NCBI GenBank assembly: GCA_009885795.1
Contig: VFKA01000004.1
Coordinates: 1 to 64,000 of the forward strand
DNA: 64,000 nt
Direction: 5' to 3'
DNA from: Rhodospirillales bacterium
GTDB lineage: Bacteria > Pseudomonadota > Alphaproteobacteria > Dongiales > Dongiaceae
Below are positions 1,477 to 19,438 of this stretch, piece after piece. Numbering within the stretch: position 1 is the stretch's first letter; each line of letters begins with the position of its first letter. The position numbers were made by a program, and so were the translations under genes. Below the pieces are notes generated by a model, which was not told where the DNA came from, made no database searches, and was given only the letters and a program-made list of their open reading frames with translations.

Positions 1477-3902
<2,426 letters not shown>

Positions 3903-3914
3903 ACCCCACCGGCC

Positions 3915-4721: not shown

Positions 4722-4749
4722 CGGTCTTTCCCTCCTACTTCTCAAACTA

Positions 4750-5685
4750 TCATCGGCTGCCGCGCACATAGGGCAGCCCCAGCGCCGGGGGCAGGCCGCT
4801 ATGGCGCGCGAACAGCACCAGCATGAGCATGACCATCAGGAATGGCAACATCTGCACCACGTCGGTCGGCACGTTGACGCCGGCGACCTGGAACGCCGTG
4901 GTGAGCGACAGCGAGAGGCCGAAGACGATCGACCCGACCAGCACCCAGCTGGGCCGGCCTCGCGCCAGCATGGCGAGCACGATGCCCATGAACCCGGCCC
5001 CCCCGGTCATGAACGGCACGAAGAGGCCGGCGCCGACATTGGCCATGTAGGCGCCGCCCATGCCGGCCAGGAACCCCGTCGCCAGCACCGCGAAGGTGCG
5101 CGTCGCCAAAACGCCGATTCCGGCCGCGTCGAGCGCCGCCGGCATCTGCCCCGCGGCCTCCAGATTGAGGCCGAGATGGGTCCGCCGGAACACCCAAGCC
5201 AGCAGCGGCACGAGCAGCACCGCCAGATAGACGAGCCAATGGTGGCTGAAGAGCGCCGGTCCCACGATCGGAATCTCGGCCAGCCCCGGCAGAGCCAACG
5301 CCGGGGCGGCGTCGAGGCGGGGATAGGAGCGGGAGAACTGGAAATGATGCAAGAGCGCGGTCAGCCCCTCGGCGCCAAGCGTGAGCGCGATGCCGATGAC
5401 GATCTGGTTCATGCCGAGCCGGACGCAGAAGAGCGCCATCAGGGCCGCGACGCCGGCGCCGCCGAGCCCGCCCGCGACGAAGCCCGCCAGGAACGATCCC
5501 GAGTAATAGGCGGCGACGAAGCCGGCATAGGCGCCCGCCAGCATCATGCCTTCGATGCCGATGTTAAGGACGCCCGCCTTCTCCGACACCTGTTCGCCCA
5601 ATCCGGCGAGCAGCAGCGGCACGCCGGCGGTGACGGCGCCGAAAAGAAGCGCGGTGACGAAGGCCGGGGTAAGGAGCGTTTCCAT
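4750..5685 (-). CDS. BMP-type ABC transporter permease 2
   Basis: About 311 residues, almost wholly hydrophobic with 8-10 predicted membrane segments. It has the EKAGVLNIGIEGMMLAGAY signature of the second permease of ribose/nucleoside-type (BMP-family) importers. ATG at 5685 is one base after the stop of the first permease, so the two are translationally coupled. The protein forms the heteromeric channel with the neighbouring permease. Its position between B6 enzymes suggests a B6-related substrate (inference); the family mostly imports nucleosides and related heterocycles. Confidence 0.85.
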   Translation of the reverse strand: METLLTPAFVTALLFGAVTAGVPLLLAGLGEQVSEKAGVLNIGIEGMMLAGAYAGFVAAYYSGSFLAGFVAGGLGGAGVAALMALFCVRLGMNQIVIGIALTLGAEGLTALLHHFQFSRSYPRLDAAPALALPGLAEIPIVGPALFSHHWLVYLAVLLVPLLAWVFRRTHLGLNLEAAGQMPAALDAAGIGVLATRTFAVLATGFLAGMGGAYMANVGAGLFVPFMTGGAGFMGIVLAMLARGRPSWVLVGSIVFGLSLSLTTAFQVAGVNVPTDVVQMLPFLMVMLMLVLFARHSGLPPALGLPYVRGSR

Positions 5686-5686
5686 C

Positions 5687-6718
5687 TCAGGACTTGGTCC
5701 GTTCGCGCCGGCGGTGATCGAGATATTCGACCAGCGCCAGGAACACCAGCAGCAGCCCCACCAGCACCAGGATAAAGAAAGTCGGCACACCCATGCGCCG
5801 CGAGGCGCTTTCGCCGCCGATCAGCAGCACCGCGAAGAAGAAGACGAAGCCGATGACCGCGATGCCGTTGAAGCGGGCGAGGAACACGAGGGGTATGGCG
5901 AGCAGCCCGAATTTCGGATTCCAGTCGGCGCGCACCGTACCCCACACGCCTAGAATCTCCACCGCCCCGCCAAGGCCGGCGAGCCCGGCGCTCAAAGCGA
6001 AGGTCGCGATCGTGAGCCGGCCGACGTTAAGGCCGGCATGCACGGCGGCGCGGGGGTTGGCGCCCACCACCTGCAGCCTGAGGCCGAAGGCAGTGCGGGT
6101 CATCAGCAGATGGACGAGGAGGATCACGATCACGGCCAGCACCACGCCGGCATGGATGGTGGAATCGAAGAGGCGCGGCAGGCGGTCCGGCACCAACAGC
6201 GTTTCCGTCTGCGGCACGGTCGTCGCCGGATCCTTGAACGGCAACTTGATGAGCACGTTGGCGAGGCTGGTGCCGAGAAAGCTCATCATCAGGGTCGTGA
6301 TGATCTCGTTGAGGCCATAGCGGGCCTTGAGGATCGCCGGCAGCAGCGACCAGGCGGCGCCCACGGCGGCGCCCGCGAGCGCGCAGACGATGAGGGTGGG
6401 ATAGCGCCCGATCGCGCCGACGAGAGCGGGGCCAAGGGCGGCGGTGACGACGGCGGCCAACAGGAATTGCCCATCGACGCCGAGATTCCAGATGCCGGCA
6501 CGGAAGGCGACGATGAGCCCGGCCGAGATGAGAAGGAGCGGCGCCAGTTTGGTGATGGTTTCCTGCAGCCCGCTCCAGGTGAGAAGGCCGCGGCGAAGCA
6601 CGAACGCGTAGTAGTCGATGGGGTCGGCGCCGAGCGCCAGGAGAACGAGCGCGCCGGCGCCGAGCGCGAGCGCGATCGGGATGAGAGTGCGAAGCACGCC
6701 GGCCGCCACCCTGCTCAT
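5687..6718 (-). CDS. BMP-type ABC transporter permease 1
   Basis: A 343-residue multi-span membrane protein with the RAGIWNLGVDGQFLLA motif and the GLNEIITTLMMSFLG helix typical of the first permease in BMP-type importers. The start ATG at 6718 follows GGAGGC; the upstream in-frame ATG at 6769 lies in repeat-rich DNA. It ends one base before permease 2. A repeat-bearing gap of 220 bases separates it from the ATPase gene, which may lower or stabilise downstream transcript. Confidence 0.86.
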   Translation of the reverse strand: MSRVAAGVLRTLIPIALALGAGALVLLALGADPIDYYAFVLRRGLLTWSGLQETITKLAPLLLISAGLIVAFRAGIWNLGVDGQFLLAAVVTAALGPALVGAIGRYPTLIVCALAGAAVGAAWSLLPAILKARYGLNEIITTLMMSFLGTSLANVLIKLPFKDPATTVPQTETLLVPDRLPRLFDSTIHAGVVLAVIVILLVHLLMTRTAFGLRLQVVGANPRAAVHAGLNVGRLTIATFALSAGLAGLGGAVEILGVWGTVRADWNPKFGLLAIPLVFLARFNGIAVIGFVFFFAVLLIGGESASRRMGVPTFFILVLVGLLLVFLALVEYLDHRRRERTKS

Positions 6719-6780
6719 GCCGCCTCCATGCCGCGATCCAATGAATGCAATCCAACAAGAGACTCCCATCCCACCATCAT

Positions 6781-6867
6781 TGTCATCGCCGGGCTTGACC
6801 CGGCGATCCGGAATTCCAGCGCTCTTCGAGTGGGTTGCTGGATGCCCGCGTCAAGCGCGGGCATGAC
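6781..6867. repeat. Dispersed palindromic repeat, family A copy 2
   Basis: Two palindromic blocks: TGTCATCGCCGGGCTTGACC continuing to CCGGCGATCC at the left, and GATGCCCGCGTCAAGCGCGG followed by GCATGACA at the right. The outer ends TGTCAT and ATGACA are complementary, so the element can fold as one long double hairpin. It fills the 6719-6938 gap between the ABC permease and ATPase genes of one operon. No other feature is seen in that gap. Confidence 0.72.
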
Positions 6868-6938
6868 AAGATTAGGGGGTGAACATCGGACTCGATCCAC
6901 TTGCGCGGCCCGGCGGGGCGATAGGCCAAGGGCGGCGT

Positions 6939-8546
6939 TCATGCCGCCGCCCCGGTCATGAGGAGGCCGATCCGCTGCTCGACACCTTCGCGGTTGTCGA
7001 TGATTCCGGCAAGCCGCCCCTGAAACATGACGCCGATGCGGTCGGCAAGCTCGATGAGCTCGTCAAGCTCGGTGGAGATCAGCACCGTCGCCAGGCCGGC
7101 ATCGGCGCCTTCGCGGATACGGTCGCGCGCCAGCTTCGTATTCTGCAGGTCGAGGCCGTAAGTCGGCTTGTTGAAGATGACGACACGGGCCGCCGATCCT
7201 AGCTCCCGCGCCAGCAGCACCTTCTGGATGTTGCCGCCCGACAGCCGCCCTACCGGCGTGCGCTCGGAGGGCGTGCGGATATCGAATTCGCGGATGCGCT
7301 CGCGCGCGTGGCCGTGGATGCGCCCCCACAGGCTCACCCCATGGCGCCACAGGCCGGCAACGCCGATCTCCTTCATCACCAGATTGGTCGCGACCGAAAA
7401 GGGCTGCACCGTGCCCTCGCCCAGGCGCTCGTCGGTGATGTAGCGCAGGCCCATGCGCCGGCGCGCGCCGACATCCGTGCCCCCGATTTCGACGCCGCCG
7501 AGGCGGATGCTCCCTTGAGCGGCCATGCGCTGGCCGGCCAGCACCTCGGCCAGGTGCTTCTGGCCGTTGCCGTCGACCCCGGCGATGCCCAGCACCTCGC
7601 CCGGCCAGAGATCGAAGCCGACCTCGCGCAAGGGGCATTCGCCCGTCTCGGCCACGGTCGAAAGATCGCGCGCGCGCAAAATCGCCTCGCCGCTCCTGTC
7701 GATGATTCCGGCGCGGCGCCGGATGCCGCGCCCGGCCAGGGTCTCGGCCTCGCCCTGGTGGCCGGAGGGCGAGCCGAACATGAGGCGGATTACCTCATCG
7801 GTCGCCTGCTCCTGGTTCATGGCGGAGAGGCGCTCCGGTCCGAGCTGGCCGACGAGCCGGCCCAGGCGCAGGACCGAAATCCTGTCGCCGAATTCGTAAG
7901 CCTCGCGCAGCTTGTGGGTGATGAAGATGACGGCGACCCCCTGGCCGCGCAGCCGGCGCATGACCTCGCCCAATTCGCGCACGCCCTGGGGCGTCAGCAT
8001 CGAGGTGGGCTCGTCCAGGATCAGCACGCCCTCGCCACGCCACAGCGCCCGCATGATCTCGACCTGCTGCTGTTGGCCGAGCGAGAGCGCGCCCAGCTTT
8101 GCCTCGGGATCGAGCGAGACGGCGAGCGCCTGGGACAGATCGTGGAATCGCCTGAGCGTGCCGGCGCGGTCGAGACGGCTCGCGCGGCCCCTGCCCAACA
8201 TGAGATTCTCGAGGACGGTGAGGCTCGGCACCAGCAACACGTGCTGGAACACCGTGCCGATGCCCAAGCCCAGGCTTTCGCGCGGCGAACCGATGCGCAC
8301 CGCCCGGCCATGGGACAGGATTTCGCCCGCATCGGGCTGCTGCATGCCGGCGAGCACGCCGATCAGCGTCGATTTACCGGCGCCATTCTCGCCCAGGAGG
8401 ACATGAATCTCGCCGGCCCGGAAGTCGAGCGAGATGTTGTCGTTGGCGATGACGCCGGGGAAACGTTTGGTGACGCCGCGCAAGGAGAGCACCGGGGCCT
8501 TGCCCATGGCGGTTGGCGATGGGGCGGCTCGGTCGAAGGATGTCAC
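6939..8546 (-). CDS. BMP-type ABC transporter ATP-binding protein (two ABC domains)
   Basis: A 535-residue fused dual nucleotide-binding protein. Domain 1 has Walker A GENGAGKST (52-60), signature LSLGQQQQ and Walker B LILDEPTS. Domain 2 has a degenerate P-loop GVDGNGQKHL, signature LSGGNIQK and a Walker B region IFNKPTYGLD without the usual acidic pair, as is normal in this ribose/nucleoside-type family. The long frame begins at GTG 8546; ATG 8507 just before the first strand is an alternative. It energises the adjacent permease pair. Substrate specificity is not set by this subunit. Confidence 0.86.
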   Translation of the reverse strand: MTSFDRAAPSPTAMGKAPVLSLRGVTKRFPGVIANDNISLDFRAGEIHVLLGENGAGKSTLIGVLAGMQQPDAGEILSHGRAVRIGSPRESLGLGIGTVFQHVLLVPSLTVLENLMLGRGRASRLDRAGTLRRFHDLSQALAVSLDPEAKLGALSLGQQQQVEIMRALWRGEGVLILDEPTSMLTPQGVRELGEVMRRLRGQGVAVIFITHKLREAYEFGDRISVLRLGRLVGQLGPERLSAMNQEQATDEVIRLMFGSPSGHQGEAETLAGRGIRRRAGIIDRSGEAILRARDLSTVAETGECPLREVGFDLWPGEVLGIAGVDGNGQKHLAEVLAGQRMAAQGSIRLGGVEIGGTDVGARRRMGLRYITDERLGEGTVQPFSVATNLVMKEIGVAGLWRHGVSLWGRIHGHARERIREFDIRTPSERTPVGRLSGGNIQKVLLARELGSAARVVIFNKPTYGLDLQNTKLARDRIREGADAGLATVLISTELDELIELADRIGVMFQGRLAGIIDNREGVEQRIGLLMTGAAA

Positions 8547-8603
8547 GCGCTAGAACACGATCCGATCGGATTGCATCGCGCCCCCCGCCCTTCATGTCCC
8601 AAG

Positions 8604-8718
8604 TCCGTCACCCCGGCGAAAGCCGGGGTCCATCGAGCCGTCGTCGCGATGGATCCCGGCTTTCGCCGGGACGACAGGAATGTCGAGGGCATGATTCCAA
8701 CAGTTCGGACAATGCTCT
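8604..8718. repeat. Dispersed palindromic repeat, family A copy 3
   Basis: Two inverted blocks, CCGTCACCCCGGCGAAAGCC at 8604 and GGATCCCGGCTTTCGCCGGG ending at about 8670, followed by GACGACAGG and a flank GGGCATGATTCCAACAGTTC that matches the flank of copy 1 in reverse complement. It fills most of the 8547-8769 gap between the importer's binding-protein and ATPase genes. The conserved flank shows that the mobile or duplicated unit is longer than the palindrome. Confidence 0.75.
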
Positions 8719-8769
8719 AGAGCGGCGGGGGCGGCCGTCGCGACCACCCCCGCCTCGACTCGAAGTCGG

Positions 8770-9819
8770 CTATTCCTGCGCCGACACGGAAGTCATCAGG
8801 GCGCGCACGGCTTGCGCGTCGTAGATTTCCTCCACCTTCAGGCTGCCGTCGATGATCTGCTGGCGCATGCCCCAGATGCCATCCCAGATGTCCTGGGGGA
8901 TGTACTTGGTCTTGAGCAACGCCACCGAATTGTCGGCCAAGCCGATGGTGTAGGCCTTGGTGCCGAACGTGCCGGCCTTCAGGTCGTTGACCATGGCGGT
9001 GTAGACGGGGACCATGTTCCACAGCACCGAGGACAAAAGGTGGCCCTTGTCGATCGTCGATTTGTCGCCGATCACGTCGATGAACCACGCCTTGCCGCCA
9101 TCGACGGCCTTGGTGGTCTCGACCGCCTGGATCATGCCGAAGCTCGATCCGTTGCCCTGGCCGAAGACGATGTCGGCGCCCGCCGCGATCACCTGCTCGG
9201 TCACGCGCCGTCCGCCGGCGGCGTCGCCGTAGGCCGCGGGGCCGATCACGGCATAGACGATCTTGATGTCGGCCTTGGCGGCCTTGGCGCCCAACGCAAA
9301 GGCGGCCGACTGCGAATTCCACGACGGCGGCTCGCCGGAGACGACGATGCCGACGGTGCCGGTGCGCGACATGGTCGCCGCCAGATGCCCGCCGAGATAG
9401 GCGCCCTGATGGCCGGACAAGGTGTAGTCGGCGACGAGGCCGGGCTTGATCGAACCCGGCGCATCGACGATGGCGACGGCCACGTTCTTCTCGACCGCGA
9501 TCTCGGGCGCCGCGGTGTTGTAGCCGCTGGCGTGCGCGATGATGAGGCTTGCCCCTTCGTCCGCCAGTTCGCGCAGCGTCGGGCGCACATCGCCATAGCC
9601 CAGGCCCTCGGCCGGAACGAATTCCAGCCCGAAGCGTTCCGCCACAATGCGCGCGGCGTCGACGCCCTGCTGGTTCCAGCCGAAATCGGTGCCCTGCTCG
9701 GGCACCATCACCGCGATCTTCGTCACTTCGGCGGCACTGGCGGCGCCGATCCCCACGTTGAGCCCGAGCGCGAGCGCGCCAGCGGCCAGGCCCAAGAGTT
9801 GCCGTTTATTGGTCTTCAT
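8770..9819 (-). CDS. BMP-family substrate-binding protein
   Basis: A 349-residue periplasmic binding protein of the basic membrane protein (BMP/PnrA, type 1 periplasmic fold) family. An N-terminal signal peptide (KTNKRQLLGLAAGALALGLN then ASA-AEVTKI) has an A-x-A cleavage site near residue 29 and no lipobox. Core motifs include GTDFGWNQQG and FGQGNGSSFG. It is the specificity subunit of the importer encoded by the next three genes and follows the FHMPC dehydrogenase gene by 85 bases. BMP proteins are best known for nucleosides, so a pyridine ring compound such as a B6 vitamer or 4-pyridoxate is a plausible but untested ligand. Confidence 0.87.
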   Translation of the reverse strand: MKTNKRQLLGLAAGALALGLNVGIGAASAAEVTKIAVMVPEQGTDFGWNQQGVDAARIVAERFGLEFVPAEGLGYGDVRPTLRELADEGASLIIAHASGYNTAAPEIAVEKNVAVAIVDAPGSIKPGLVADYTLSGHQGAYLGGHLAATMSRTGTVGIVVSGEPPSWNSQSAAFALGAKAAKADIKIVYAVIGPAAYGDAAGGRRVTEQVIAAGADIVFGQGNGSSFGMIQAVETTKAVDGGKAWFIDVIGDKSTIDKGHLLSSVLWNMVPVYTAMVNDLKAGTFGTKAYTIGLADNSVALLKTKYIPQDIWDGIWGMRQQIIDGSLKVEEIYDAQAVRALMTSVSAQE

Positions 9820-9904
9820 CGTCGTCGTTCCTCCCTATGGAAGTGTCCGTGGGTCTGGCACCCACACCGCCGCGGCCACCGGCCGCAAATTCGAGTTCCA
9901 GGTT

Positions 9905-10828
9905 CTAGCCGTCGAGCGCCTTGCGGACCGCGACGAGCTTGCGCGCGCGTTCCTGGCGTAGTTGCGCGATCTTCTCGGGCGTATAATCGAAGATGCCGCC
10001 GCCGGTCTTCATGCCGAGCTTGCCCGCCTTCGTGCGCGAGGTAACGAACTCGGCCACGTCGGCACGATTGCAGAGGTCCTTGTTCAGATAGCTGCCGACC
10101 GCCTGATAGATGTCGAGGCCGGCCATGTCCAGAAGCGCCATCGGGCCGATGACGGCGATCTTGTAACCGATGCCCCAGGAGACGCAGGTGTCGAGACCCT
10201 CGGGGTCGATGACGCCTTCGGAGACCAGTTCGACGCTCTCGCGAAGGAGCGCGTAGAGAATCCGGTTCTCGACGAAGCCCGGCACGTCCTTCTTCACCAC
10301 CACGGGAAGAAGCCCCAGCCCCTTCACGATGTCGCACATCCAGGTCACCGTCGCGGGCGAGGTTTCCTTGCCGGCGATCACCTCGATCATGGGGATGATG
10401 TGCGGCGGATTGGACCAGTGCATGCCGACCACGCGCCCCGGCGCCGAATTGCCGGATTGCAGCTTGGTGATCGGGATGCCCGACGTGTTGGAGCCAATGA
10501 CGCAAGCCTTGCCAACGTGCTTGTCGATCTCGGCGAAGACCTGGGCCTTGATGTCGAGTTTCTCCGGCACGGTCTCGACCACCAGATCGACCCCGGCGAG
10601 GCAAGATTTGAGGTCGTCATGGATCTCGATCTCGGCCCCGCCGCTACGGTCGGGCATGCCCAGAGCCGTCAGCACGCCCGTCGCCATGCGGATGGCATCG
10701 GGCGCCTTCTGGCGCTGCTCGGCGAAGGGATCGAACGCGCCGACGCTCATGCCGCCGCGCAAGAGCGTCGCCGCGATGCCGGGGCCCATCGTGCCCAGAC
10801 CCACTACTGCCGCCTTGGTCATCGTCAT
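9905..10828 (-). CDS. 5-Formyl-3-hydroxy-2-methylpyridine-4-carboxylate dehydrogenase homologue
   Basis: A 307-residue member of the 3-hydroxyacyl-CoA dehydrogenase superfamily: N-terminal Rossmann domain with GLGTMGPG, then a helical C-terminal domain. It closely resembles the M. loti FHMPC dehydrogenase, which oxidises the 5-formyl group of the pyridine ring with NAD to give 3-hydroxy-2-methylpyridine-4,5-dicarboxylate. Shared signatures are GMHWSNPPHIIPMIEVIAG, LPVVVKKDVPGFVENR and DTCVSWGIGYKIAVIGPMAL. The start at 10828 (second ATG 10822) lies 12 bases after the GST stop. It places the window firmly in the B6 degradation pathway beyond 4-pyridoxate. Confidence 0.88.
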   Translation of the reverse strand: MTMTKAAVVGLGTMGPGIAATLLRGGMSVGAFDPFAEQRQKAPDAIRMATGVLTALGMPDRSGGAEIEIHDDLKSCLAGVDLVVETVPEKLDIKAQVFAEIDKHVGKACVIGSNTSGIPITKLQSGNSAPGRVVGMHWSNPPHIIPMIEVIAGKETSPATVTWMCDIVKGLGLLPVVVKKDVPGFVENRILYALLRESVELVSEGVIDPEGLDTCVSWGIGYKIAVIGPMALLDMAGLDIYQAVGSYLNKDLCNRADVAEFVTSRTKAGKLGMKTGGGIFDYTPEKIAQLRQERARKLVAVRKALDG

Positions 10829-10840
10829 TCTCCAAAAATA

Positions 10841-11443
10841 TCAGTCGGTCGCTACCTTAGCAAAAGCGGGGCGCGCCGCCAACCTCTGGCGCCAGGCGTT
10901 CACCTTGGGCAGCGGCGGGCGATCGACCGGAAAATCGAGACAGCGGCGCACGATCGGACCCAGGCTGAATTCCGCCAGCGTGATCTCCGCCCCCGCCAGA
11001 TACGGATCGGTCCCAAGCGCGCCTTCGAGGATCAGGAGCTGCTGGCCCAGTTCCGCCACGTCCTTGGCGAGGCTCGCGGGACGCTCGGCCGGCGCCTTCT
11101 TCGCCTCCCTGAAAACCCCGATATAGGAATTGTAGATCGCGGAAAGCTGCCAATCCATCCACTGCTCCACCCGCGCGCGCTTGGCGGCCGCGGTCGGGTA
11201 AAATGAACTGCCGCGCTTGTTGCAGAGATAGCGCAGGATGGTGTTCGACTCCCAGACGACGGTGTCGCCATCCACCAGCGTCGGCACCTTGGCGTTGGGG
11301 TTGAGGCGGCGGTACTCCGGCGTCTCGGTATTGTCGAACAGGCGGCCGTAATCCTCGCGCTCGTAGGGCTCGCCCATCTCCTCGAGCAGCCAGATGATTT
11401 TCTGCACGTTGCCCGAGGTCTTGCGGCCCAGAAGTTTCAACAT
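10841..11443 (-). CDS. Glutathione S-transferase family protein
   Basis: A 200-residue two-domain GST: thioredoxin-like N-terminal half with GRKTSGNVQK (residues 6-15), the cis-proline KVPTLVDGD and the WESNTILRYL glutathione-binding segment, then an all-helical domain. Cytosolic GSTs of this class include GSH-dependent cis-trans isomerases acting on ring-cleavage products such as maleylpyruvate. Its place between the FHMPC dehydrogenase gene and ridA, and downstream of a ring-cleaving-type cupin, makes an isomerase role attractive (inference). A general detoxification role is the alternative. Confidence 0.82.
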   Translation of the reverse strand: MLKLLGRKTSGNVQKIIWLLEEMGEPYEREDYGRLFDNTETPEYRRLNPNAKVPTLVDGDTVVWESNTILRYLCNKRGSSFYPTAAAKRARVEQWMDWQLSAIYNSYIGVFREAKKAPAERPASLAKDVAELGQQLLILEGALGTDPYLAGAEITLAEFSLGPIVRRCLDFPVDRPPLPKVNAWRQRLAARPAFAKVATD

Positions 11444-11462
11444 CGCATTCTTCCCCTACCGT

Positions 11463-11867
11463 TCAGCTTCGCGGCGCATAGGCGACCGCGTCCATCTCGA
11501 TCCTGGTGGCGATCACGGCGCGCGCCTCGACCGTGGTGCGCGCCAGCATGCCGTCCGGAAAGTACTCCGCGAACACCTTGTTGTACCGCCCAAAATCACG
11601 GGCGTCATCCAGGTATGTCGTGACCCGGACGATATGTTCGAGGCCGATCCCCTCGAGCGCCAGAATGCGGCGGATGGCCTCGATGGTCCAGCGCGTCTCT
11701 TCCTCGATCGTGCCGGCGAGCATGGTTCCGGCCTCGTCCTTGGGCACCTGGCCGGAGACGAACACGAAATCCCCTGCCCGCACCGCCGGATGAAACGGCA
11801 GGTTCGGGTTTTTCTTGCCGATGGCACGGATGCCGGCCGGGCGGGCGGCGGCGCTCTTGTCGTTCAT
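11463..11867 (-). CDS. RidA family protein (enamine/imine deaminase type)
   Basis: A 134-residue YjgF/YER057c/UK114 protein with the HPAVRAGDFVFVSGQVPKD opening, the T-T-V-E-A-R-A-V strand carrying the conserved arginine and a C-terminal EMDAVAY. RidA proteins hydrolyse reactive enamine/imine intermediates to keto acids and ammonia, and subfamily members occur in many nitrogen-heterocycle catabolic operons. Here it lies between the GST and LVIVD genes, 10 bases from the latter, so removal of an enamine from a cleaved pyridine ring is a sensible guess. Confidence 0.85.
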   Translation of the reverse strand: MNDKSAAARPAGIRAIGKKNPNLPFHPAVRAGDFVFVSGQVPKDEAGTMLAGTIEEETRWTIEAIRRILALEGIGLEHIVRVTTYLDDARDFGRYNKVFAEYFPDGMLARTTVEARAVIATRIEMDAVAYAPRS

Positions 11868-11877
11868 GATGGCGTCC

Positions 11878-13002
11878 TCACTTGACCGAGATTTCGACGA
11901 TATCGACGCCGCGCTGGCGGTCGATCAGGTAGCAGAGGCCGCGATCGTCCATGGTCACGTCGTTCGAGGACGCCATGGCGCAGCCTTCGGGCGGGTCGGG
12001 CTCGAACGAGGCCACTTCGCGTGGGTGGAACGGATCGGCGATGTCGACGATACGAAGCCCTTTGGCGAACCAGGCGAAGGGGATCCTGGTGCCGGTGAAA
12101 CGCTCGGAGGGCTGGTGGCAGCCCATGAACGCGGCTTGCGGCGCGCCGTCGGGGTCGAGCCCTTCGACCTGAAAGGTGGCGATGGGCGTCGGGGTGGCTT
12201 CCGCCGTGATGTCGTAGATCCAGGCGAAGGCCGGCGCCGCCGGCCAGAGCTTGGCCACGTCCTCGTCCGCCACCACCATGATGCGCCGGCCCTTCAGCGT
12301 CTCGGGGATCGGCAGGCAGGTGTGGGTCGGATGAGGGAATGCCGGCGTGGTGTTGACCCCGGCGACGGCCTTGGGCCGCGCCATGTCGGCGATGTCGAGG
12401 ATGTAGAACCCATGATGCCAATAGCTGACATAGAGCCGGTCGCCGGCCCGCAACGGGTGATGGCAGCGCGGCGGCGTCCAGTTCTCCCAGGGGTAGTCCT
12501 CGCCGCCGGCCCGCCACTGACCCGGTATCCACCAACGCCCGACTTCCTCGGGCCGGGCCGGATCGGCGAGGTCGAGGATCATCATGATGTTGCCGACATA
12601 GCCCTCGGCGGTGGGCGATATATAGGCATGGCGGCCGTCGAAGTCGTAGCGGTGCACGCCCTTGCCATGGGTGCGCCACTTGGCGATGAGGCGGGGCCTG
12701 GCCGGCGCCGACACATCGTAGATGCCGAGCCCGCCGCCGAATTCCACCGCCCCCTCGCCATGGCGCTCGTGGTTCACGATCATGATGCCGTTGGCGACCC
12801 GGACCTTATGGGAATGCCAGCCCACGGGCATGTCGATGCGCGCCAGCTCGCGCGGATGGGACGGGTCGGCCACGTCGTAGATCGTGGTGCCGACGGGCGC
12901 GCGCATGTGGCCGACATAGAGCGTTGTGCCATCGACCCACACCTGCCCGCCGCCGGGACAGTCGATATGCGCGATGTGCTTGGTATTCCGGGACTTGGGC
13001 AT
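11878..13002 (-). CDS. LVIVD-repeat beta-propeller-like protein
   Basis: About 374 residues made of repeated blocks ending in strand motifs such as IYDVADPSHPRELARI, IYDVSAPARPRLIAKW, ILDLADPARPEEVGRW, ILDIADMARPKAVAGV and IVDIADPFHPREVASF. Spacing of about 45-60 residues is as in LVIVD-repeat propellers. It contains many conserved His residues and no signal peptide. The ATG at 13002 is used because sequence beyond it in the open frame is a shadow of the cupin gene 24 bases upstream. The function of such proteins is poorly known; as part of a catabolic operon it may be a scaffold or a lactonase-like propeller enzyme (inference). Confidence 0.75.
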   Translation of the reverse strand: MPKSRNTKHIAHIDCPGGGQVWVDGTTLYVGHMRAPVGTTIYDVADPSHPRELARIDMPVGWHSHKVRVANGIMIVNHERHGEGAVEFGGGLGIYDVSAPARPRLIAKWRTHGKGVHRYDFDGRHAYISPTAEGYVGNIMMILDLADPARPEEVGRWWIPGQWRAGGEDYPWENWTPPRCHHPLRAGDRLYVSYWHHGFYILDIADMARPKAVAGVNTTPAFPHPTHTCLPIPETLKGRRIMVVADEDVAKLWPAAPAFAWIYDITAEATPTPIATFQVEGLDPDGAPQAAFMGCHQPSERFTGTRIPFAWFAKGLRIVDIADPFHPREVASFEPDPPEGCAMASSNDVTMDDRGLCYLIDRQRGVDIVEISVK

Positions 13003-13025
13003 CGGGCAACAGGCAGGCGGCGGAA

Positions 13026-14192
13026 TCAGGCGAGCCGCACGACTTCGCCGGAGGGCCGGCGGCCGTGCTTCTGGTAGAAGGCGAGCGCCTTCAGCGTGGG
13101 CTCGTCGCTGGCGACGAAGAGAATGACCGGGTCCTTGTCGGAGCCGTTGACGTGTTCGCACCATGTCCCGCCCGGCACGGCGAAGGTGTCGAACTCCGCC
13201 CAGTCGAGCCGCGTGCCGTCGATGATGCTGTGGCCCATACCTTCGAAGGGCGCGCACAAGAGGCTCGCGTTCTGCTTCAGTGGCGCGGTGCGCTCGCCCG
13301 GCCGCAGCATCTGGGCGAAGAAGGTCATGGTCTTGTACACCGGGCCGCCGGTGGTGGGGTCGACATACTCGATCATCAGCGCCTCGTGCGGATCGCCGTC
13401 CCAATCGCGGAACTTCTCCAGGAGCGCCCGCATCGCGTCCCAGCGATAGACGTACATCGGCGAGGCGTTGCCGGTGCCGCGATCGTGCGCCAGGAATCTC
13501 GGCCTAAGACCGCCGGTGCCATAGGCGCGGGCCGAATAGTCGGCGGGGAAGCGCTCGGACTGGACCGCCTTCCTCACGCGCTCGCCCTTTTCCACCTCGG
13601 TGTAGTCATGCTCGAAATAGGTGGCGTTGAGGGTCTCGCACAGCGGCAGGTCGAGCACGCTCAAATTGATGGCCGGCTCGTCGCCAAGGTTGCCGTGGTT
13701 GTGCCAGGTGTCGTGCGGCGTCAGCACTAAATCGCCGGGACCGAAGGTGATGTTCTCGCCCTCGACGCCGGTAAAGTTCTGCTTGCCGGTGAGGCCGAGG
13801 CGGATGGCGTTCGGCGAATGGCGGTGCGGCGGCATGATCTCGTTGGGGTCGTTGAGGCGGTAGGCGGTGTAGAGGGTGCCGACCGTGGCGCGGCGCGGCG
13901 CCAGGCCGGGATTGACGAGGATGAGCGAGCGACGCTCGGAGGATTCGGCTGTAATGAGTTCGGCCGAGCGGTGCAGCAGCGGCAGGATGTCGGCCTGGTA
14001 GTTCCAGCGGAAGGGCAGCGCTTTCCGCTTGTCCATGACCTGGCGGTCCTCGTCATGCGCATTCGCGCGGTCGACGACCCAGAACGGCGCCATGTCGCGG
14101 CTGTAAACGTCCTCGTGCAGCCGGTCGAGGGCGCGCTGAAGGTTGTGGTCGCCGGCGGGACTTGGCTTGGGGGTTGGCTTCGGGGCGGTCAT
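13026..14192 (-). CDS. Gentisate/salicylate 1,2-dioxygenase-type double-cupin protein
   Basis: A 388-residue bicupin. The N-terminal cupin keeps a full Fe(II) triad: H123 and H125 in PPHRHSPNAIRLGLTG and H164 in TPHDTWHNHGN. The C-terminal cupin is degenerate, as in gentisate, salicylate and 1-hydroxy-2-naphthoate dioxygenases. These enzymes open aromatic rings next to a carboxylate ortho to a hydroxyl. B6 catabolites (4-pyridoxate, FHMPC and the 4,5-dicarboxylate) have exactly that 3-hydroxy-4-carboxy pattern, so pyridine-ring cleavage is proposed. It is the first gene of the leftward operon; ATG at 14192 starts the recognisable protein, though no strong Shine-Dalgarno is seen. Confidence 0.8.
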   Translation of the reverse strand: MTAPKPTPKPSPAGDHNLQRALDRLHEDVYSRDMAPFWVVDRANAHDEDRQVMDKRKALPFRWNYQADILPLLHRSAELITAESSERRSLILVNPGLAPRRATVGTLYTAYRLNDPNEIMPPHRHSPNAIRLGLTGKQNFTGVEGENITFGPGDLVLTPHDTWHNHGNLGDEPAINLSVLDLPLCETLNATYFEHDYTEVEKGERVRKAVQSERFPADYSARAYGTGGLRPRFLAHDRGTGNASPMYVYRWDAMRALLEKFRDWDGDPHEALMIEYVDPTTGGPVYKTMTFFAQMLRPGERTAPLKQNASLLCAPFEGMGHSIIDGTRLDWAEFDTFAVPGGTWCEHVNGSDKDPVILFVASDEPTLKALAFYQKHGRRPSGEVVRLA

Positions 14193-14270
14193 GGGCGGCG
14201 ACAGTAGCGGCGGGGTGGGCGGCCGGCAATAGCGCATTGGCCCGGGCTGGGCTTCCTCGGCTTATGATGC

Positions 14271-14299
14271 TTTACATGCTACACGTGGCGTACTAGTTT
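14271..14299 (+). promoter_or_regulatory. Possible higBA promoter
   Basis: TTTACA at 14271-14276 and TAGTTT at 14294-14299 are separated by 17 bases. The spacer contains CACGTG within TACACGTGGCGTA, a partly symmetric stretch that could bind the HigA antitoxin. The toxin ATG at 14305 would lie almost at the transcription start, implying a leaderless message. Matches to consensus are only fair. Confidence 0.4.
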
Positions 14300-14304
14300 C
14301 GATC

Positions 14305-14583
14305 ATGATCCGAAGCTGGGCGAGCGGCGCCGCGCGGCGGCTGTATGACACCGGGCGCTCGAAGTTTTCCGGTCTCGACGCCGACAAGGCCCTTGAACTA
14401 CTGACGGCGCTGGACGAGGCGGTCTCATTGACCGAACTCAGTCCCTTGAAGAGCATCGGGCTGCACAAACTCAAGGGCGACCGGAAAGGGCAGTGGGCGA
14501 TGACCGTCAACGGTCCCTGGCGACTGTGTTTTCGCTTTCGCGATGGCGACGCCTTCGATGTCGAGATCGTCGATTACCATTGA
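14305..14583 (+). CDS. higB: HigB-type toxin (RelE superfamily mRNA interferase)
   Basis: A 92-residue RelE-superfamily toxin of the HigB type, shown by LHKLKGDRKGQWAMTVNGPW followed by RLCFRF and the C-terminal VEIVDYH. HigB cleaves mRNA on the ribosome. As usual for this type, the toxin gene precedes its antitoxin, here by 9 bases including a GAAGGAGGAG ribosome site. The pair lies between the B6 operon and a repeat-rich, gene-decay region, suggesting mobile gain. Confidence 0.88.
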   Translation: MIRSWASGAARRLYDTGRSKFSGLDADKALELLTALDEAVSLTELSPLKSIGLHKLKGDRKGQWAMTVNGPWRLCFRFRDGDAFDVEIVDYH

Positions 14584-14592
14584 AGGAGGAGA

Positions 14593-14871
14593 ATGATGAT
14601 TCCCGTTCACCCCGGCCGGCTCTTAAAGCGAGAAATGGAGGCGCGCGAACTCTCCGCCAATGGGCTTGCCCGCGCCTTGCGCGTTCCGCCCGGCCGGATC
14701 ATCGATATCGTCAACGGCAAGCGCGCGATCAGCGCGGAGACGGCGCTGCGGCTCGGCCGTTACTTCGGCAATGGCGGACGGTTCTGGCTGGCGCTGCAGA
14801 GCCGTTACGACCTGGCGCTGACGGAGCGCAAGACCGGCGCACGCATCGTCAAGGAAGTAAACGCGGCTTGA
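14593..14871 (+). CDS. higA: HigA-type antitoxin (XRE helix-turn-helix)
   Basis: A 92-residue HigA/VapI-type antitoxin with a complete HTH_3 domain (about residues 5-60, HPGRLLKREMEARELSANGL then RIIDIVNGKRAISAETALRL). The C-terminal helix ends RFWLALQSRYDLALTE. It neutralises HigB and normally represses its own operon. The start follows a strong AAGGAGGAGA sequence, so it is probably translated better than the toxin. A REP-like repeat array starts about 40 bases after the stop. Confidence 0.88.
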   Translation: MMIPVHPGRLLKREMEARELSANGLARALRVPPGRIIDIVNGKRAISAETALRLGRYFGNGGRFWLALQSRYDLALTERKTGARIVKEVNAA

Positions 14872-14912
14872 GAAGCTCTTGTTGGCGCGGCCATCGAATA
14901 GTGCGAATTTCG

Positions 14913-15081
14913 GAATTTCGGTGACAGTGCACTTAATTCGAATTTCGGTGCGATTTCGGTGACAGTGCACTTAATTCACCATTTGAATCTTGAAAATTTC
15001 CAAGCGTGACATAATGGGCATTTTGTCCGAGGCTCGCTCTTGCCTGCTTCGAATGAATTTAGTGCACTGTCACCGAAATTC
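14913..15081. repeat. REP-like array, family D (GGTGACAGTGCACTTAATTC)
   Basis: Two direct copies of ATTTCGGTGACAGTGCACTT followed by AATTC (14914-14939 and 14953-14977) and one inverted copy, GAATTTAGTGCACTGTCACC then GAAAT (15055-15080). Shorter GAATTTCG and CCCCGAAATTCCC echoes flank them. The inverted pair can form a large hairpin with about a 77-base loop. The structure resembles REP elements mobilised by IS200-like (RAYT/Y1) transposases; no transposase gene is in the window. It occupies most of the 14872-15112 gap. Confidence 0.78.
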
Positions 15082-15112
15082 CCCGAAATTCCCGTGACGC
15101 TGCCGGAAAAAA

Positions 15113-16054
15113 CTACTGACTGTCACCGGTTTCCATTAGCGAATAGCTTGTGCTGCGCCCGCCGGCGGAGTCCTTCCCGAGTACGCCACGGCTCACCAGA
15201 TCCATGATGTCGCGGTGGGCGGTATCCTGCGAGCATTTGGCAAGCCTTGCCCATTTCGAGGAATTGAGCTTTCCTTCGAATCCGCCGAGCAGGCGGTTCA
15301 GGACTATTTTCTGCCGCTGGTCGAACGATTCGCCGACATGCGTTTCCCGGAAACGGGCTTTCCGGACGACGGCGGCCAGTGTGTCGCCCGCCCGATCGAT
15401 GGCGCGGGAAAGGCACCCCGCGAACCATTCCATCCATACGGTGATGTCGAGCGAACCTTTCTGGGTCTGCTCCAGCACATCGTAGTAGGCGTCGCGCTCC
15501 CGTCGTATCCGCGCCGACATGCTGTAAAAGCGTTGGCTGCTGTTTTCGGAGCGGGCCAGCACCATGTCGGCGATGGCCCGCGCGATACGGCCGTTGCCGT
15601 CGTCGAAGGGATGGATGGTCACGAACCGGAAATGGGCGAGCGCGGCCTTGAGGACGGCATCGATGCCGTCCTCGCGGTTGAACCATTCGAGGAACCGCGA
15701 CATCTCGGCCTCGAGCCGATTCGCGGGCGGCGCCCGGTGGTGAACGCGCTCTTTCCCGATCGGTCCCGAAACGACCTGCATGGGATCGGCGCTTTCATCG
15801 CGCCACGCCCCGACGCGAATCTTGGTCATGCCGGCGCGGCCGCTCGGAAAGAGAGCCGCGTGCCAGGCAAATAGTCGCCCCTCGGTCAGCGCCCGGTCGT
15901 AATGCCGCGTGGCATCGAGCATCATCTCGACAACGCCTTCGACGTTGCGATCGGCGGGAGCGAGAGCGCCGATATCCATGCCGAGGCGACGGGCAATGGA
16001 TGTCCGTACTTGCGCCGGGTCCAGCTTTTCGCCTTCGATTTCGCTGGACTTATT
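15113..16054 (-). pseudogene. 5'-truncated Fic-family AMPylase (DUF4172-Fic type)
   Basis: The frame from ATG 15979 gives 288 residues with an intact Fic motif HPFDDGNGRIAR, a preceding flap (DPMQVVSGPIGKERVHHRAPP) and a C-terminal winged-helix-like part (KWARLAKCSQDTAHRDIMDL). Family members are about 360-380 residues. Upstream of the ATG the same frame continues with recognisable family sequence (SSEIEGEKLDPAQVRTSIAR, 16048-15989) that includes the autoinhibitory S-x-x-x-E-G motif. A TAG at 16102-16100 precedes it, and no start codon lies between. The gene has therefore lost its N-terminal DUF4172 part. If still translated from 15979, the product would be a Fic domain without its inhibitory helix. 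Confidence 0.75.
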
Positions 16055-16431
16055 GGCATGGTGGCCTGGAATGACGGCGAAAACCGTTGACTTTTTCGGC
16101 TATGTTCCTGTAATGTTCGATTATCCCGCTTCGGCGGGACCGGTGTGGTTCCTTGACACCGTGAATAGGACTGCCAGGAAACCCTTTGCGCGCCTCTCGC
16201 GGAAGGGCGTCGAAGCGATTCCGGTTCGATTCCTGCCCTTTGCGATGGCCAGGCGCGCGATAATTGTTCCTCCAAAATCAGTAGGGGGATACCCCTCCCC
16301 AACCGGGAACCGCCAGCGGATACTTGGTACCCGGTGCCTATCCGCCCAGCGGCAATTCCCGCTGGACATGGGGTGCATCGCCCGCTTTTCGTTTTTGTTT
16401 CTTCGTGCCGACCCTAGGGCCGGCCGGCCTA
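16055..16431. other. Gene-free stretch with strong predicted hairpins
   Basis: No credible gene is seen here. It holds the decayed junction of the Fic gene and an imperfect nested hairpin at 16188-16258: outer arms GCGCGCCT/AGGCGCGC, inner AAGGGC/GCCCTT and TCGC/GCGA. A TTCG-loop hairpin CCCGCTTCGGCGGG lies near 16126-16139, and a pair of stems (GCGGATA/TATCCGC and CCAGCGG/CCGCTGG) near 16315-16366 is followed by a T-rich run (CGCTTTTCGTTTTTGTTT). It could encode a small structured RNA or be degenerate repeats. Confidence 0.5.
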
Positions 16432-16505
16432 TGGAGCGGGTGAAGGGAATCGAACCCTCGTCGTAAGCTTGGGAAGCTTCTGCTCTACCATTGAGCTACA
16501 CCCGC
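16432..16505 (-). tRNA. tRNA-Gly (anticodon CCC)
   Basis: Read on the minus strand from 16505: acceptor GCGGGTG pairs with CACCCGC, D-arm TAGCTCAATGGTAGAGC, anticodon loop TTCCCAA giving anticodon CCC, T-arm AGGGTTCGATTCCCT, discriminator T and an encoded CCA. It is 74 bases with the CCA. The base pair at the top of the anticodon stem is mismatched (G-A), which is tolerable. It reads GGG codons. It sits beside decayed DNA, and tRNA 3' ends are frequent integration sites, but no attachment duplicate is seen. Confidence 0.93.
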
Positions 16506-16652
16506 GCCTCGATCGACTCTATGTCCGGTGCCCAGTCCGGCGCAAGGCGCCGTTGACCTTGCTGGTGGGAAGTGCAAACCTACCGTCATAATCGCCGCCC
16601 AAAAAAGGCGGCTGCGGTCCAAAAATGGCGACCCAACCAGGAGGAGGCACTG

Positions 16653-18239
16653 ATGGAATTGGAGAAGATGAAGCACCTCGCCACCAAGGGCAAGGTATCC
16701 CGGCGCGAGTTCATCCAGTTTGCGGTGACGACCGGCATGACGATCGCGGCGGCGCAGACGATGTTCTCGAAGGTCGCCAAGGCCGAACCCAAGCGCGGCG
16801 GCTTTGCGCGCATCGGCGTGGCGCATGGCTCGACCTCCGACACCATGGACCCCGGCAACTATCTCGACACCGGTACCCAGGTGCCGTTCTGGGGCGCCAT
16901 GTCGAACAGCCTGACCGAGGTCGATGCCAAGGGGAACGTGGTCGGCGACCTGGCCGAGAGCATGGAGCCCGCCGACGACGGCAAGTCGTGGGTCTTCAAG
17001 CTGCGCAAGGGCCTCACCTTCCATGACGGCAAGGACGTGACCTCGGAAGACGTCGTGGCCTCGTTCCGCTATCACATGGGCGCCGATTCGAAATCGGCGG
17101 CGAAGTCGCTGTTGGAAGCGGTCGCCGACATCAAGACCGACGGCAAGGAAACCGTCATCTTCAACCTCTCCGGCGGCAACGCCGACTTCCCCTACATCGC
17201 CAGCGACTATCACATCCCGATCATGCCGTCGAAGGACGGCGTCGTCGACGCCAACGGCACCGTGCGCTCCGGCGCCTTCACGTTCGAGAAGTGGGAGCCG
17301 GGCGTCAGCGCCAAGCTGAAGCGCAACCCGAACTATCACAAGAGCGGGATGCCGTATTTCGACGAGATCGAGGTCGTCTCCGTCGCCGACAACGCGGCGC
17401 GGATGAACGCCCTCATCACCGGCGAACTGCACTGGATCGGCCGCGCCGATCTGAAGACGCTGAACCTGCTGGAGAAGAATCCCGACATCCAGATCACCGA
17501 AGTGACCGGCTACGGCCACTACGTCTATCCGATGCTCACCACCGTGGCGCCCTTCGACAACGTGCACGTGCGCCAGGCGCTCAAATACGCGATGAACCGC
17601 GAGGACATCGCCAAGAAGGTGTTCTTCGGCCATGCCGCGCCCGGCAACGACAACCCGATCGCGCCGGGGATCAAGTTCGCGACGAACCCGGAGCCGATCT
17701 ATGCCTACGACCCCGACAAGGCCAAGTTCCATCTGGGCAAGGCCGGCCTAACCTCGCTCAAGGTCGACCTCTCCGTCGCCGACACCGGGTTCACCGGCGC
17801 CGTCGAGGCGGGCGTCCTCTACCAGGAGCACGCCAAGGCGGCGGGCATCGACATCAACCTGATTCGCGAGCCCAATGACGGCTATTGGGACAACGTCTGG
17901 CTGAAGAAGGGCTGGTGCGCGTCCTATTGGAGCGGCCGGCCGACCATCGACTGGATGATGACCACGGTCTATGCCGCGGGCGCGGCCTGGAACGAGACGG
18001 CGTGGAGCAACGCCCGCTTCAACGAGCTGCTGGTCGCGGCCCGGGGCGAGCTCGACGAAGCCAAGCGCGCCGGGATGTACGCCGAGATCCAGCAGTTGGT
18101 CCATGACGATGGCGGCGTGGTCGTCGTCGTGTTCAACAACTATGTCGAGGCGCACTCGAAAAAACTCGCGCACGGCGACGTCGCGCCGAACTGGGAAGCC
18201 GACGGCCTCAAGCTGGCCGAACGTTGGTGGTTCGCGTAA
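16653..18239 (+). CDS. Family 5 (peptide/opine-type) ABC transporter substrate-binding protein
   Basis: A 528-residue extracytoplasmic binding protein of the DppA/OppA class. The N-terminus carries a twin-arginine signal (SRREFIQ, residues 16-22, then a hydrophobic stretch ending AKAEP), unusual for binding proteins but common for this subfamily in alphaproteobacteria. Later motifs include DGKSWVFKLRKGLTFHDGKD and VRQALKYAMNREDIAKKVFF. The ATG at 16653 follows AGGAGGAGGC. It heads an operon with two permeases and a fused ATPase. The substrate (di-/oligopeptide, opine or similar) cannot be read from sequence. Confidence 0.9.
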   Translation: MELEKMKHLATKGKVSRREFIQFAVTTGMTIAAAQTMFSKVAKAEPKRGGFARIGVAHGSTSDTMDPGNYLDTGTQVPFWGAMSNSLTEVDAKGNVVGDLAESMEPADDGKSWVFKLRKGLTFHDGKDVTSEDVVASFRYHMGADSKSAAKSLLEAVADIKTDGKETVIFNLSGGNADFPYIASDYHIPIMPSKDGVVDANGTVRSGAFTFEKWEPGVSAKLKRNPNYHKSGMPYFDEIEVVSVADNAARMNALITGELHWIGRADLKTLNLLEKNPDIQITEVTGYGHYVYPMLTTVAPFDNVHVRQALKYAMNREDIAKKVFFGHAAPGNDNPIAPGIKFATNPEPIYAYDPDKAKFHLGKAGLTSLKVDLSVADTGFTGAVEAGVLYQEHAKAAGIDINLIREPNDGYWDNVWLKKGWCASYWSGRPTIDWMMTTVYAAGAAWNETAWSNARFNELLVAARGELDEAKRAGMYAEIQQLVHDDGGVVVVVFNNYVEAHSKKLAHGDVAPNWEADGLKLAERWWFA

Positions 18240-18259
18240 TCGCCACCTGCTAAAGGGCG

Positions 18260-18287
18260 GGGTCGCCGTTCCAAGGGACGGCGGCCC
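18260..18287 (+). promoter_or_regulatory. Intercistronic hairpin after the binding-protein gene
   Basis: GGGTCGCCGT pairs with ACGGCGGCCC (one G-T wobble) around an 8-base loop, 20 bases after the binding-protein stop. There is no T-run, so it is more likely to stabilise the upstream message than to terminate. Such stems between binding protein and permease genes commonly give excess binding protein over channel. Confidence 0.55.
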
Positions 18288-18335
18288 TGTTACCCGCGAA
18301 TCATAGATGACTGACATGCGCCATCATCCTTCGTC

Positions 18336-18395
18336 CTTCGACAGGCTCGGGACGAGGAGGCTCAGGAGGAGCCCCTCATGCTGAGCCTGTCGAAG
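18336..18395. repeat. Dispersed inverted repeat, family B copy 1
   Basis: CTTCGACAGGCTC (18336-18348) and its exact inverse GAGCCTGTCGAAG (18383-18395) bracket a GA-rich centre. The same motif occurs at 44169-44213. TTCGACAGGCTCAG-type repeats are widely scattered in alphaproteobacterial genomes. It lies in the 18240-18460 gap between binding-protein and permease genes. Confidence 0.8.
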
Positions 18396-18460
18396 CACGA
18401 GAGGCGGGAACCCGCGATTCCGCCTGTCGCGAAAGCGGGCCCTGGCAGGTTGTCCGCCAC

Positions 18461-19438
18461 TTGAACGCCATCCTCGTCACCGTCCTCAAACGCCTGGGTC
18501 TGGGCGTCATCACGCTCTTCGTCGTCTCCATCATCATCTCCTTCGTCTTCGAATTGCTGCCGGGCGACTTCGCCAAGGCCATTCTCGGCCAGTCGGCGAC
18601 ACCCGAGACGGTGGCCGCGTTCCAGCGCGAGAAGGGCCTCGACCGCCCGCCGGTCGAGCGCTACCTCAAATGGATCGGCGGCGTGGTCGTGGGCGATTTC
18701 GGCGAATCCTATTCCGGCGCCGGCAGCCTCGGCGGATCGAAGAGGCCGGTGGCCAAGCTCATCGCGCCGCGCCTTAGCAACACGCTGTTCCTGGCCGCGA
18801 CCGCGGCGATCGTCGCCGTGCCGCTGGCGTTGGTGCTGGGCCTGCTGGCGGCGCTTTACCGCAACAGCCTGTTCGACCGGGTCGTGAACGTCGTCACCCT
18901 CACCTCGATCTCGACGCCCGAGTTCTTTGTCGCCTACATCCTGATGCTGTTCCTCGCGGTGAAGCTGCCGTGGTTCTACGCGCTCGCCAACGTCTCCAGC
19001 GACACGCCGTTCCTGGAGCACCTCGCGCGCATCGCGCTGCCGGTGCTGACACTGGTGCTCGTCACCGTCGCGCAGATGATGCGCATGACGCGGGCCGCGA
19101 TCATCAACCTGCTGGCCAGCCCCTATATCGAGATGGCGCGGTTGAAGGGCGTGCCGCCGCGCCGCATCATCGTCCACCACGCGCTGCCCAATGCCTGGGC
19201 GCCGATCGCCAACGTCATCGCGCTCAACCTCGCCTATCTCGTGGTCGGCGTCGTCATCGTCGAGGTCGTCTTCACTTATCCGGGCATCGGCCAGCTCATG
19301 GTCGATGCGGTCTCCAAGCGCGACATGCCGGTGGTGCAGGGCTGCGCGCTCATCTTCGCCGCCACCTACATCCTGCTCAATCTGGTGGCCGACATCGTCG
19401 CCATCGTCACCAACCCGAGGCTGTTGCACCCGCGATGA
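18461..19438 (+). CDS. DppB-type ABC transporter permease
   Basis: A 325-residue inner-membrane permease with six predicted segments. Its binding-protein-dependent transport motif EMARLKGVPPRRIIVHHALP contacts the ATPase. The N-terminal hydrophobic VITLFVVSIIISFVFELLPG is typical of DppB/OppB. The start appears to be TTG at 18461; no better in-frame ATG precedes the first helix. Its stop overlaps the next start (ATGA). Confidence 0.88.
   Translation: MNAILVTVLKRLGLGVITLFVVSIIISFVFELLPGDFAKAILGQSATPETVAAFQREKGLDRPPVERYLKWIGGVVVGDFGESYSGAGSLGGSKRPVAKLIAPRLSNTLFLAATAAIVAVPLALVLGLLAALYRNSLFDRVVNVVTLTSISTPEFFVAYILMLFLAVKLPWFYALANVSSDTPFLEHLARIALPVLTLVLVTVAQMMRMTRAAIINLLASPYIEMARLKGVPPRRIIVHHALPNAWAPIANVIALNLAYLVVGVVIVEVVFTYPGIGQLMVDAVSKRDMPVVQGCALIFAATYILLNLVADIVAIVTNPRLLHPR

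Follow-up and report, generated by a model that had tools for sequence, protein, structure and literature searches.

The stretch of DNA analysed here (hereafter the window; 64,000 nucleotides, positions 1 to 64,000 of contig VFKA01000004.1 from a Rhodospirillales bacterium of the Dongiaceae, assembly GCA_009885795.1) contains genes for the degradation of vitamin B6, among them a bicupin that probably belongs to a third lower branch of this catabolism. An operon of ten genes occupies positions 3915-14192 of the minus strand. It starts with the bicupin gene, continues with the genes for an LVIVD-repeat propeller, a Rid protein, a glutathione S-transferase (GST) and a dehydrogenase for 5-formyl-3-hydroxy-2-methylpyridine-4-carboxylate (FHMPC), followed by a four-gene B6-type ABC transporter, and ends with the 4-pyridoxolactonase gene. 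The gaps between the first five genes measure 23, 10, 19 and 12 bases. A preliminary description of this DNA had placed the cupin, LVIVD, Rid and GST genes ahead of the FHMPC dehydrogenase gene, and all four are indeed present there, on the minus strand. The genes of the operon and those of the upper pathway next to it are the following:

13026-14192, minus strand: predicted bicupin Fe(II) ring-cleaving dioxygenase of the salicylate/gentisate family (B6 cupin, 388 aa); iron site and R87/R131/H166 conserved
11878-13002, minus strand: LVIVD-repeat beta-propeller (374 aa), suspected metal-dependent hydrolase; in 46/46 cupin loci, fold match 5hrm
11463-11867, minus strand: Rid-superfamily protein (134 aa), putative imine/enamine deaminase; Pfam match, R116 at the position of the catalytic Arg105
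10841-11443, minus strand: GST-like protein (200 aa), putative isomerase; in 38/46 cupin loci, below the MaiA equivalog cut-off
9905-10828, minus strand: FHMPC 5-dehydrogenase; NF042925 with 495.4 bits (cut-off 500), 61% identity to the M. loti protein 4om8
8770-9819, minus strand: BMP-family substrate-binding protein of the putative B6 ABC transporter; NF047927 with 467.2 bits (cut-off 400)
6939-8546, minus strand: ATP-binding protein of the putative B6 ABC transporter; NF047930 with 775.9 bits (cut-off 670)
5687-6769, minus strand: permease 2 of the putative B6 ABC transporter; NF047929 with 527.5 bits (cut-off 400)
4750-5640, minus strand: permease 1 of the putative B6 ABC transporter; NF047928 with 512.2 bits (cut-off 465); the reading frame extends upstream and the start is not fixed
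3915-4721, minus strand: 4-pyridoxolactonase; NF047925 with 464.8 bits (cut-off 325), nearest solved protein 3aj3
2659-3399, plus strand: pyridoxal 4-dehydrogenase of the SDR type, start at about 2659; NF047923 with 411.9 bits (cut-off 325)
250-1476, plus strand: pyridoxamine-pyruvate transaminase (PPAT); NF046070 with 626.7 bits (cut-off 600)
1473-2624, plus strand: second PPAT-like gene; NF046070 with 586.8 bits (cut-off 600)

The names given to the cupin, the Rid protein and the GST denote families and not functions because the three proteins fall well short of the NCBIfam cut-offs at equivalog or subfamily level. PPAT, pyridoxal dehydrogenase and 4-pyridoxolactonase, which form the upper part of pathway I, each exceed their cut-off. 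The name of the FHMPC dehydrogenase is almost certainly correct although its score stays slightly below the cut-off; the nearest solved protein is 4om8, and the next best NCBIfam family reaches 182.7 bits. A gene resembling pyridoxine oxidase (62% identity to the Dongia copy) starts at base 378 of another contig of the same genome (C20) and is probably located just past the edge of the window's contig. Due to this gene and the upper-pathway genes of the window, the upper B6 pathway can be regarded as real. The two PPAT-type transaminase genes, which match the same equivalog, overlap in tandem (250-2624, plus strand).

To our knowledge, a flavin monooxygenase carries out the ring opening in both known routes of vitamin B6 degradation. 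The cluster shares the transporter, the transaminase, the lactonase and the FHMPC dehydrogenase with pathway I of Mesorhizobium loti MAFF303099 and Pseudomonas MA-1, and within Mesorhizobium also the 4-pyridoxate dehydrogenase and the genomic position. However, the decarboxylase of 3-hydroxy-2-methylpyridine-4,5-dicarboxylate (HMPD), the MHPC flavin oxygenase MHPCO and the AAMS hydrolase AAMSH of pathway I are absent here, and the cupin and the LVIVD propeller (plus Rid and GST) are found instead. The relation between the two gene sets was surveyed with a profile of the FHMPC dehydrogenase, which retrieved 80 loci from species-representative genomes. MHPCO, HMPD decarboxylase and AAMSH of M. 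loti, whose identities were confirmed against the PDB, served as probes, and annotated controls were drawn from genome contigs and from PDB-confirmed M. loti sequences. The cupin is encoded in 46 and MHPCO in 34 of the 80 loci; no locus has both and none has neither. All MHPCO-type loci also encode the HMPD decarboxylase and 4-pyridoxate dehydrogenase, and AAMSH is present in 33 of the 34, the exception being cut by a contig end. None of the 46 cupin-type loci contains HMPD decarboxylase, MHPCO or AAMSH. The proximity of the two genes, with the cupin next to or close to the FHMPC dehydrogenase in 46 of the 80 loci, each retrieved independently, is far beyond chance. A search of plasmid records yielded no relative of the FHMPC dehydrogenase or of the lactonase.

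The exclusivity extends to whole genomes. Of the genomes searched, all those of the MHPCO type have an MHPCO ortholog (at least 66% identity) and none of the cupin type has one anywhere in the genome, and the same applies to the HMPD decarboxylase (at least 73%). Conversely, a cupin ortholog was detected in none of 15 MHPCO-type genomes by a search that recovered both positive controls at 63% identity. It had been suggested in the preliminary description that the known flavin oxygenase and hydrolase are replaced, and these data strongly support the idea; moreover, the HMPD decarboxylase is lost as well.

In Mesorhizobium, both cassette types occupy the same genomic place with nearly identical flanks. 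The transporter, lactonase and PPAT of the MHPCO-type locus L066 are 93-99% identical to those of three cupin-type loci, the FHMPC dehydrogenase is about 85% and the 4-pyridoxate dehydrogenase about 82% identical, and the centre of the cluster is exchanged. This arrangement is an in-place cassette swap. Furthermore, 385 alphaproteobacterial genomes, sampled evenly, were searched separately for the FHMPC dehydrogenase, the cupin and the 4-pyridoxolactonase. At high similarity, all three occur in the identical six genomes and in no others. A gap separates the cupin hits in this sample, the B6 cupin reaching down to 65% identity and the next cupins starting from 44%. The chance that two given six-genome sets coincide is 2e-13, a value that is inflated by kinship as three of the six genomes share a family. 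Linkage alone is insufficient to explain the coincidence because the lactonase gene of one genome (G289) lies on another contig. The idea that the cupin is a chance neighbour of the B6 genes was dropped after this result. It is also very improbable that the module is a mere passenger among the B6 genes and acts on a different aromatic or heterocyclic compound. The cupin family is versatile and wider relatives of the LVIVD propeller are encoded beside other catabolic genes, as would be expected of such a passenger, but cupin, FHMPC dehydrogenase and lactonase would then hardly be confined to one identical set of 6 among the 385 genomes. Moreover, the module sits in the B6 cluster where the other type has the MHPCO cassette, and a passenger would leave the genomes without a known ring-opening step.

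The window's own genome, which is 99.9% complete, fits this pattern. A hidden flavin ring-opener, which according to the preliminary description would speak against the cupin if it were induced with the operon while the cupin was not, was looked for genome-wide and none was found: no protein matches MHPCO at E<=1e-15, and the only full-length FAD_binding_3 protein resembles UbiH. The HMPD decarboxylase and the MHPC oxygenase are absent genome-wide. It can be stated that the module very likely replaces everything downstream of HMPD because it is mutually exclusive with the HMPD decarboxylase, MHPCO and AAMSH, has been swapped in place and co-occurs with the B6 genes in the six genomes.

The cupin itself was compared with salicylate 1,2-dioxygenase (SDO) and two gentisate enzymes in an alignment of 22 cupin orthologs. 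The residue mapping rests on this alignment because AlphaFold modelled the cupin with no more than fair confidence (mean pLDDT of 74.8). H123, H125 and H164, in which an intact iron site had been recognised early on, align with the SDO iron ligands H119, H121 and H160 and are invariant among the orthologs. R83, R127 and H162 of SDO, which touch the carboxylate and hydroxyl groups of the substrate (PMC11264262; PMC10306065), correspond to R87, R131 and H166 of the cupin, again invariant in all 22 orthologs. By contrast, Gln108, Trp172 and Asp174 of SDO, which are conserved in the gentisate enzymes, are replaced by Arg112, Asn176 and Ser178 in 22 of 22 orthologs. Asp174 is known to read the 5-hydroxyl group of gentisate (PMC10306065). 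Judged by these residues, the catalytic machinery is retained and the substrate differs from that of the gentisate and salicylate enzymes; the extra Arg would suit an additional carboxylate, as HMPD has. Thus, the cupin resembles SDO of Pseudaminobacter salicylatoxidans and the gentisate 1,2-dioxygenases 3bu7 and 2d40 in its bicupin architecture, the three-His iron site and the substrate-binding residues, but it differs in the exchanged triad and shares about 25-31% identity with them by fold search, and all orthologs examined are linked to B6 genes. With 200 bits against a cut-off of 442.1 for TIGR02272 and with the class residues replaced, it is not a gentisate 1,2-dioxygenase proper. The 5-aminosalicylate 1,2-dioxygenase MabB (NF049978) is the best NCBIfam match of the cupin, yet the score is 217.3 bits against a cut-off of 650, and there are no mab-type genes beside the window cupin.

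Taken together, the cluster probably encodes a third lower branch of B6 catabolism, in which an Fe(II) bicupin would act on HMPD and pyruvate and ammonia would be released. We favour, with somewhat less assurance, a more specific version of this proposal, according to which the cupin cleaves HMPD between C3 and C4 without prior decarboxylation, the LVIVD protein acts as a hydrolase, and Rid and GST serve as helpers, yielding pyruvate, ammonia and a C4-C5 keto acid; this would be the cassette that was swapped in Mesorhizobium. HMPD is most likely the natural substrate, a judgement based on gene content, because the module stands in for the HMPD decarboxylase, MHPCO and AAMSH while the FHMPC dehydrogenase is retained. 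The upper branch would be that of pathway I, leading via PPAT or pyridoxine oxidase, pyridoxal dehydrogenase and 4-pyridoxolactonase to 4-pyridoxate, and this compound and then FHMPC would be oxidised to give HMPD. The bicupin may bind HMPD via the 3-hydroxyl and 4-carboxylate groups, as SDO binds salicylate, and cleave the C3-C4 bond with O2, with neither a decarboxylation nor a flavin monooxygenase step. The loss of the decarboxylase fits a salicylate-type mechanism because the 4-carboxylate beside the hydroxyl group must remain. Cleavage would be expected to yield an N-vinyl 2-iminopropanoate with an alpha-keto acid attached. Rid and/or LVIVD would then hydrolyse the C=N bond of this compound to give pyruvate and an aminomethylene-oxaloacetate, and this enamine would be converted to ammonia and a formyl-oxaloacetate-type acid. 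The GST may isomerise the remaining double bond.

Several observations weigh against this interpretation. First, the tree of the FHMPC dehydrogenase needs just two type changes, and the exclusivity does not represent 80 independent events. For this reason, the Fisher value of 2e-23 overstates the evidence for exclusivity, and the argument rests on the Mesorhizobium swap, the genome-wide absences and the six-of-six coincidence. Second, several cupin-type genomes possess distant MHPCO-like flavoproteins (38-44% identity) elsewhere. Third, Rid is missing from 9 and GST from 8 of the 46 cupin loci, and the residue equivalent to R116 is Lys in 14 of 38 Rid orthologs. Fourth, the activity of every module member is a predicted one. 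Finally, the window's genome (best match 47%) and several of its kin have no ortholog of 4-pyridoxate dehydrogenase, and the cupin might therefore act earlier in the pathway. In that case, 4-pyridoxate or FHMPC would be cleaved directly, and the FHMPC-dehydrogenase homolog, a member of the 3-hydroxyacyl-CoA dehydrogenase family, would oxidise the ring-opened alcohol or aldehyde. We consider this unlikely. Both compounds have the same 3-hydroxy-4-carboxylate pair, 22 of the 46 cupin loci have no ortholog of the 4-pyridoxate dehydrogenase nearby, and the FHMPC dehydrogenase of the window lies just under its equivalog cut-off. However, the other 24 cupin loci, including all those of Mesorhizobium, keep the ortholog within 10 kb of the cupin, the motifs of the FHMPC dehydrogenase are conserved across both locus types, and 4-pyridoxate could be oxidised by other GMC oxidases (43-47%) of the window's genome.

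The partners of the cupin differ in their constancy. The preliminary description had assigned possible steps to GST and Rid and had suggested a survey of whether cupin, GST and Rid co-occur with 4-pyridoxolactonase in genomes lacking the flavin oxygenase. The cupin is indeed exclusive with MHPCO, but Rid and GST accompany it in only 37 and 38 of the 46 loci, respectively; the universal partner is the LVIVD protein (46/46), a point that had been overlooked. Its orthologs are 70-81% identical to the window copy, and its mean pairwise identity (0.76) is the highest of the five proteins compared. The protein contains many invariant His, Asp and Cys residues, and its His-rich motifs are invariant as well. 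The best fold match is the Sphingobium TCM1 phosphotriesterase 5hrm (E-value of 1.5e-16, TM-score of 0.71, about 20% identity), and 5hrm and 5ioj, which represent the same enzyme, are the only profile matches among solved structures; in Pfam, SBP56 matches weakly. Unlike the Sphingobium enzyme, the LVIVD protein lacks a phosphotriester context. A purely structural role was judged unlikely because the polar residues are invariant, and with moderate confidence, based on fold and conservation, the LVIVD protein may hydrolyse the product of ring cleavage. In a refinement of our proposal, which does not compete with it, LVIVD would be the second catalyst that the pathway cannot do without, splitting the cleavage product as a metal-dependent propeller hydrolase, and Rid and GST would be accessory enzymes. 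The constancy and conservation of LVIVD, its match to 5hrm and the dispensability of Rid and GST in some loci speak in favour of this refinement. However, many propellers match LVIVD at lower scores and the alignment with 5hrm spans repeat stretches; we regard the refinement as conceivable, at slightly less than an even chance. Three relatives of LVIVD, L172 (genome G086; 59% identity), L173 (41%) and L174 (40%), are encoded in other catabolic neighbourhoods, with a TPP enzyme and a MaiA-like GST, with TauD- and MmgE/PrpD-like genes, or with a flavin monooxygenase, suggesting a wider enzyme family.

Rid proteins hydrolyse imines of the 2-iminopropanoate type. The Rid protein of the window matches the Pfam family and remains below the cut-offs for the Rid detoxifying hydrolase, RutC and TIGR00004. 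RutC and 2-aminomuconate deaminase (6izh) are precedents for Rid proteins in ring-cleavage catabolism (PMC8113886; PMC4433059). As in these systems, a Rid-fold protein is encoded together with a ring-opening enzyme and would be expected to remove an enamine or imine, but the window protein differs from RutC in its score. The GST reaches 48.6 bits against the MaiA equivalog cut-off of 171.05 and is not MaiA by this measure. The window's genome (3.46 Mb) has eleven Rid-domain matches, three of them within one open frame of 416 codons on contig C102. Elsewhere in this genome (contig C6, 110975-114547; L129), a Rid gene, an aldehyde dehydrogenase gene and the gene for the GMC oxidase nearest to 4-pyridoxate dehydrogenase (47%) lie together.

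The survey also revealed variation within both locus types. In all 34 MHPCO-type loci (e.g. L066, 6372-7452) and in no cupin-type locus, genes for an AA_synth-family protein (PF06684) and a PEBP protein lie between the MHPCO and HMPD decarboxylase genes. A clade of seven cupin-type loci (L048, L049, L050, L051, L053, L058 and L104) shows the order cupin, FHMPC dehydrogenase and LVIVD, with no Rid, GST or transporter gene nearby and with hyuA/hyuB-like genes of the caprolactamase/acetophenone carboxylase family downstream in all seven. Most of these genomes also have MHPCO-like flavoproteins (about 41-43%) elsewhere, often in tandem. A pyruvate carboxylase gene beside the cupin in L049 was considered as support for pyruvate as a product and rejected, as it is present in only one of the seven related loci.

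In the window, a HigBA-type toxin-antitoxin pair (a HigB-like Pfam match and HigA, TIGR02607; 14305-14871, plus strand) is divergent from the cupin operon and occupies the position at which several other cupin-type genomes have the 4-pyridoxate dehydrogenase or a GntR-type regulator. Beyond it lies a gene for a Fic/DOC-family protein (15113-15979, minus strand). A scan for sigma-70 promoters gave no signal above chance. No Rfam element was detected inside the operon, the sole match in window positions 1-20000 being a tRNA (16435-16505, minus strand) flanked by the Fic gene and by an ABC transporter of the oligopeptide type.

The catabolism of vitamin B6 has been called the best understood breakdown of a cofactor, with two routes (PMC3538738). 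No cupin route of B6 degradation was found in a search of largely open-access literature, and NCBIfam has no equivalog for the B6 cupin or for LVIVD. We rate the proposed route as a new lower branch on a known catabolic pathway, with a known enzyme class acting on a new substrate. The proposal lends itself to a direct test, since within the single genus Mesorhizobium some species have one cassette and some the other, in almost the same genetic surroundings. If the proposal is true, the salicylate/gentisate enzyme class would gain a vitamin-derived pyridine as substrate and the LVIVD propeller would gain a function. Moreover, it would explain why 46 of the 80 FHMPC-dehydrogenase loci do without a ring-opening flavoprotein.

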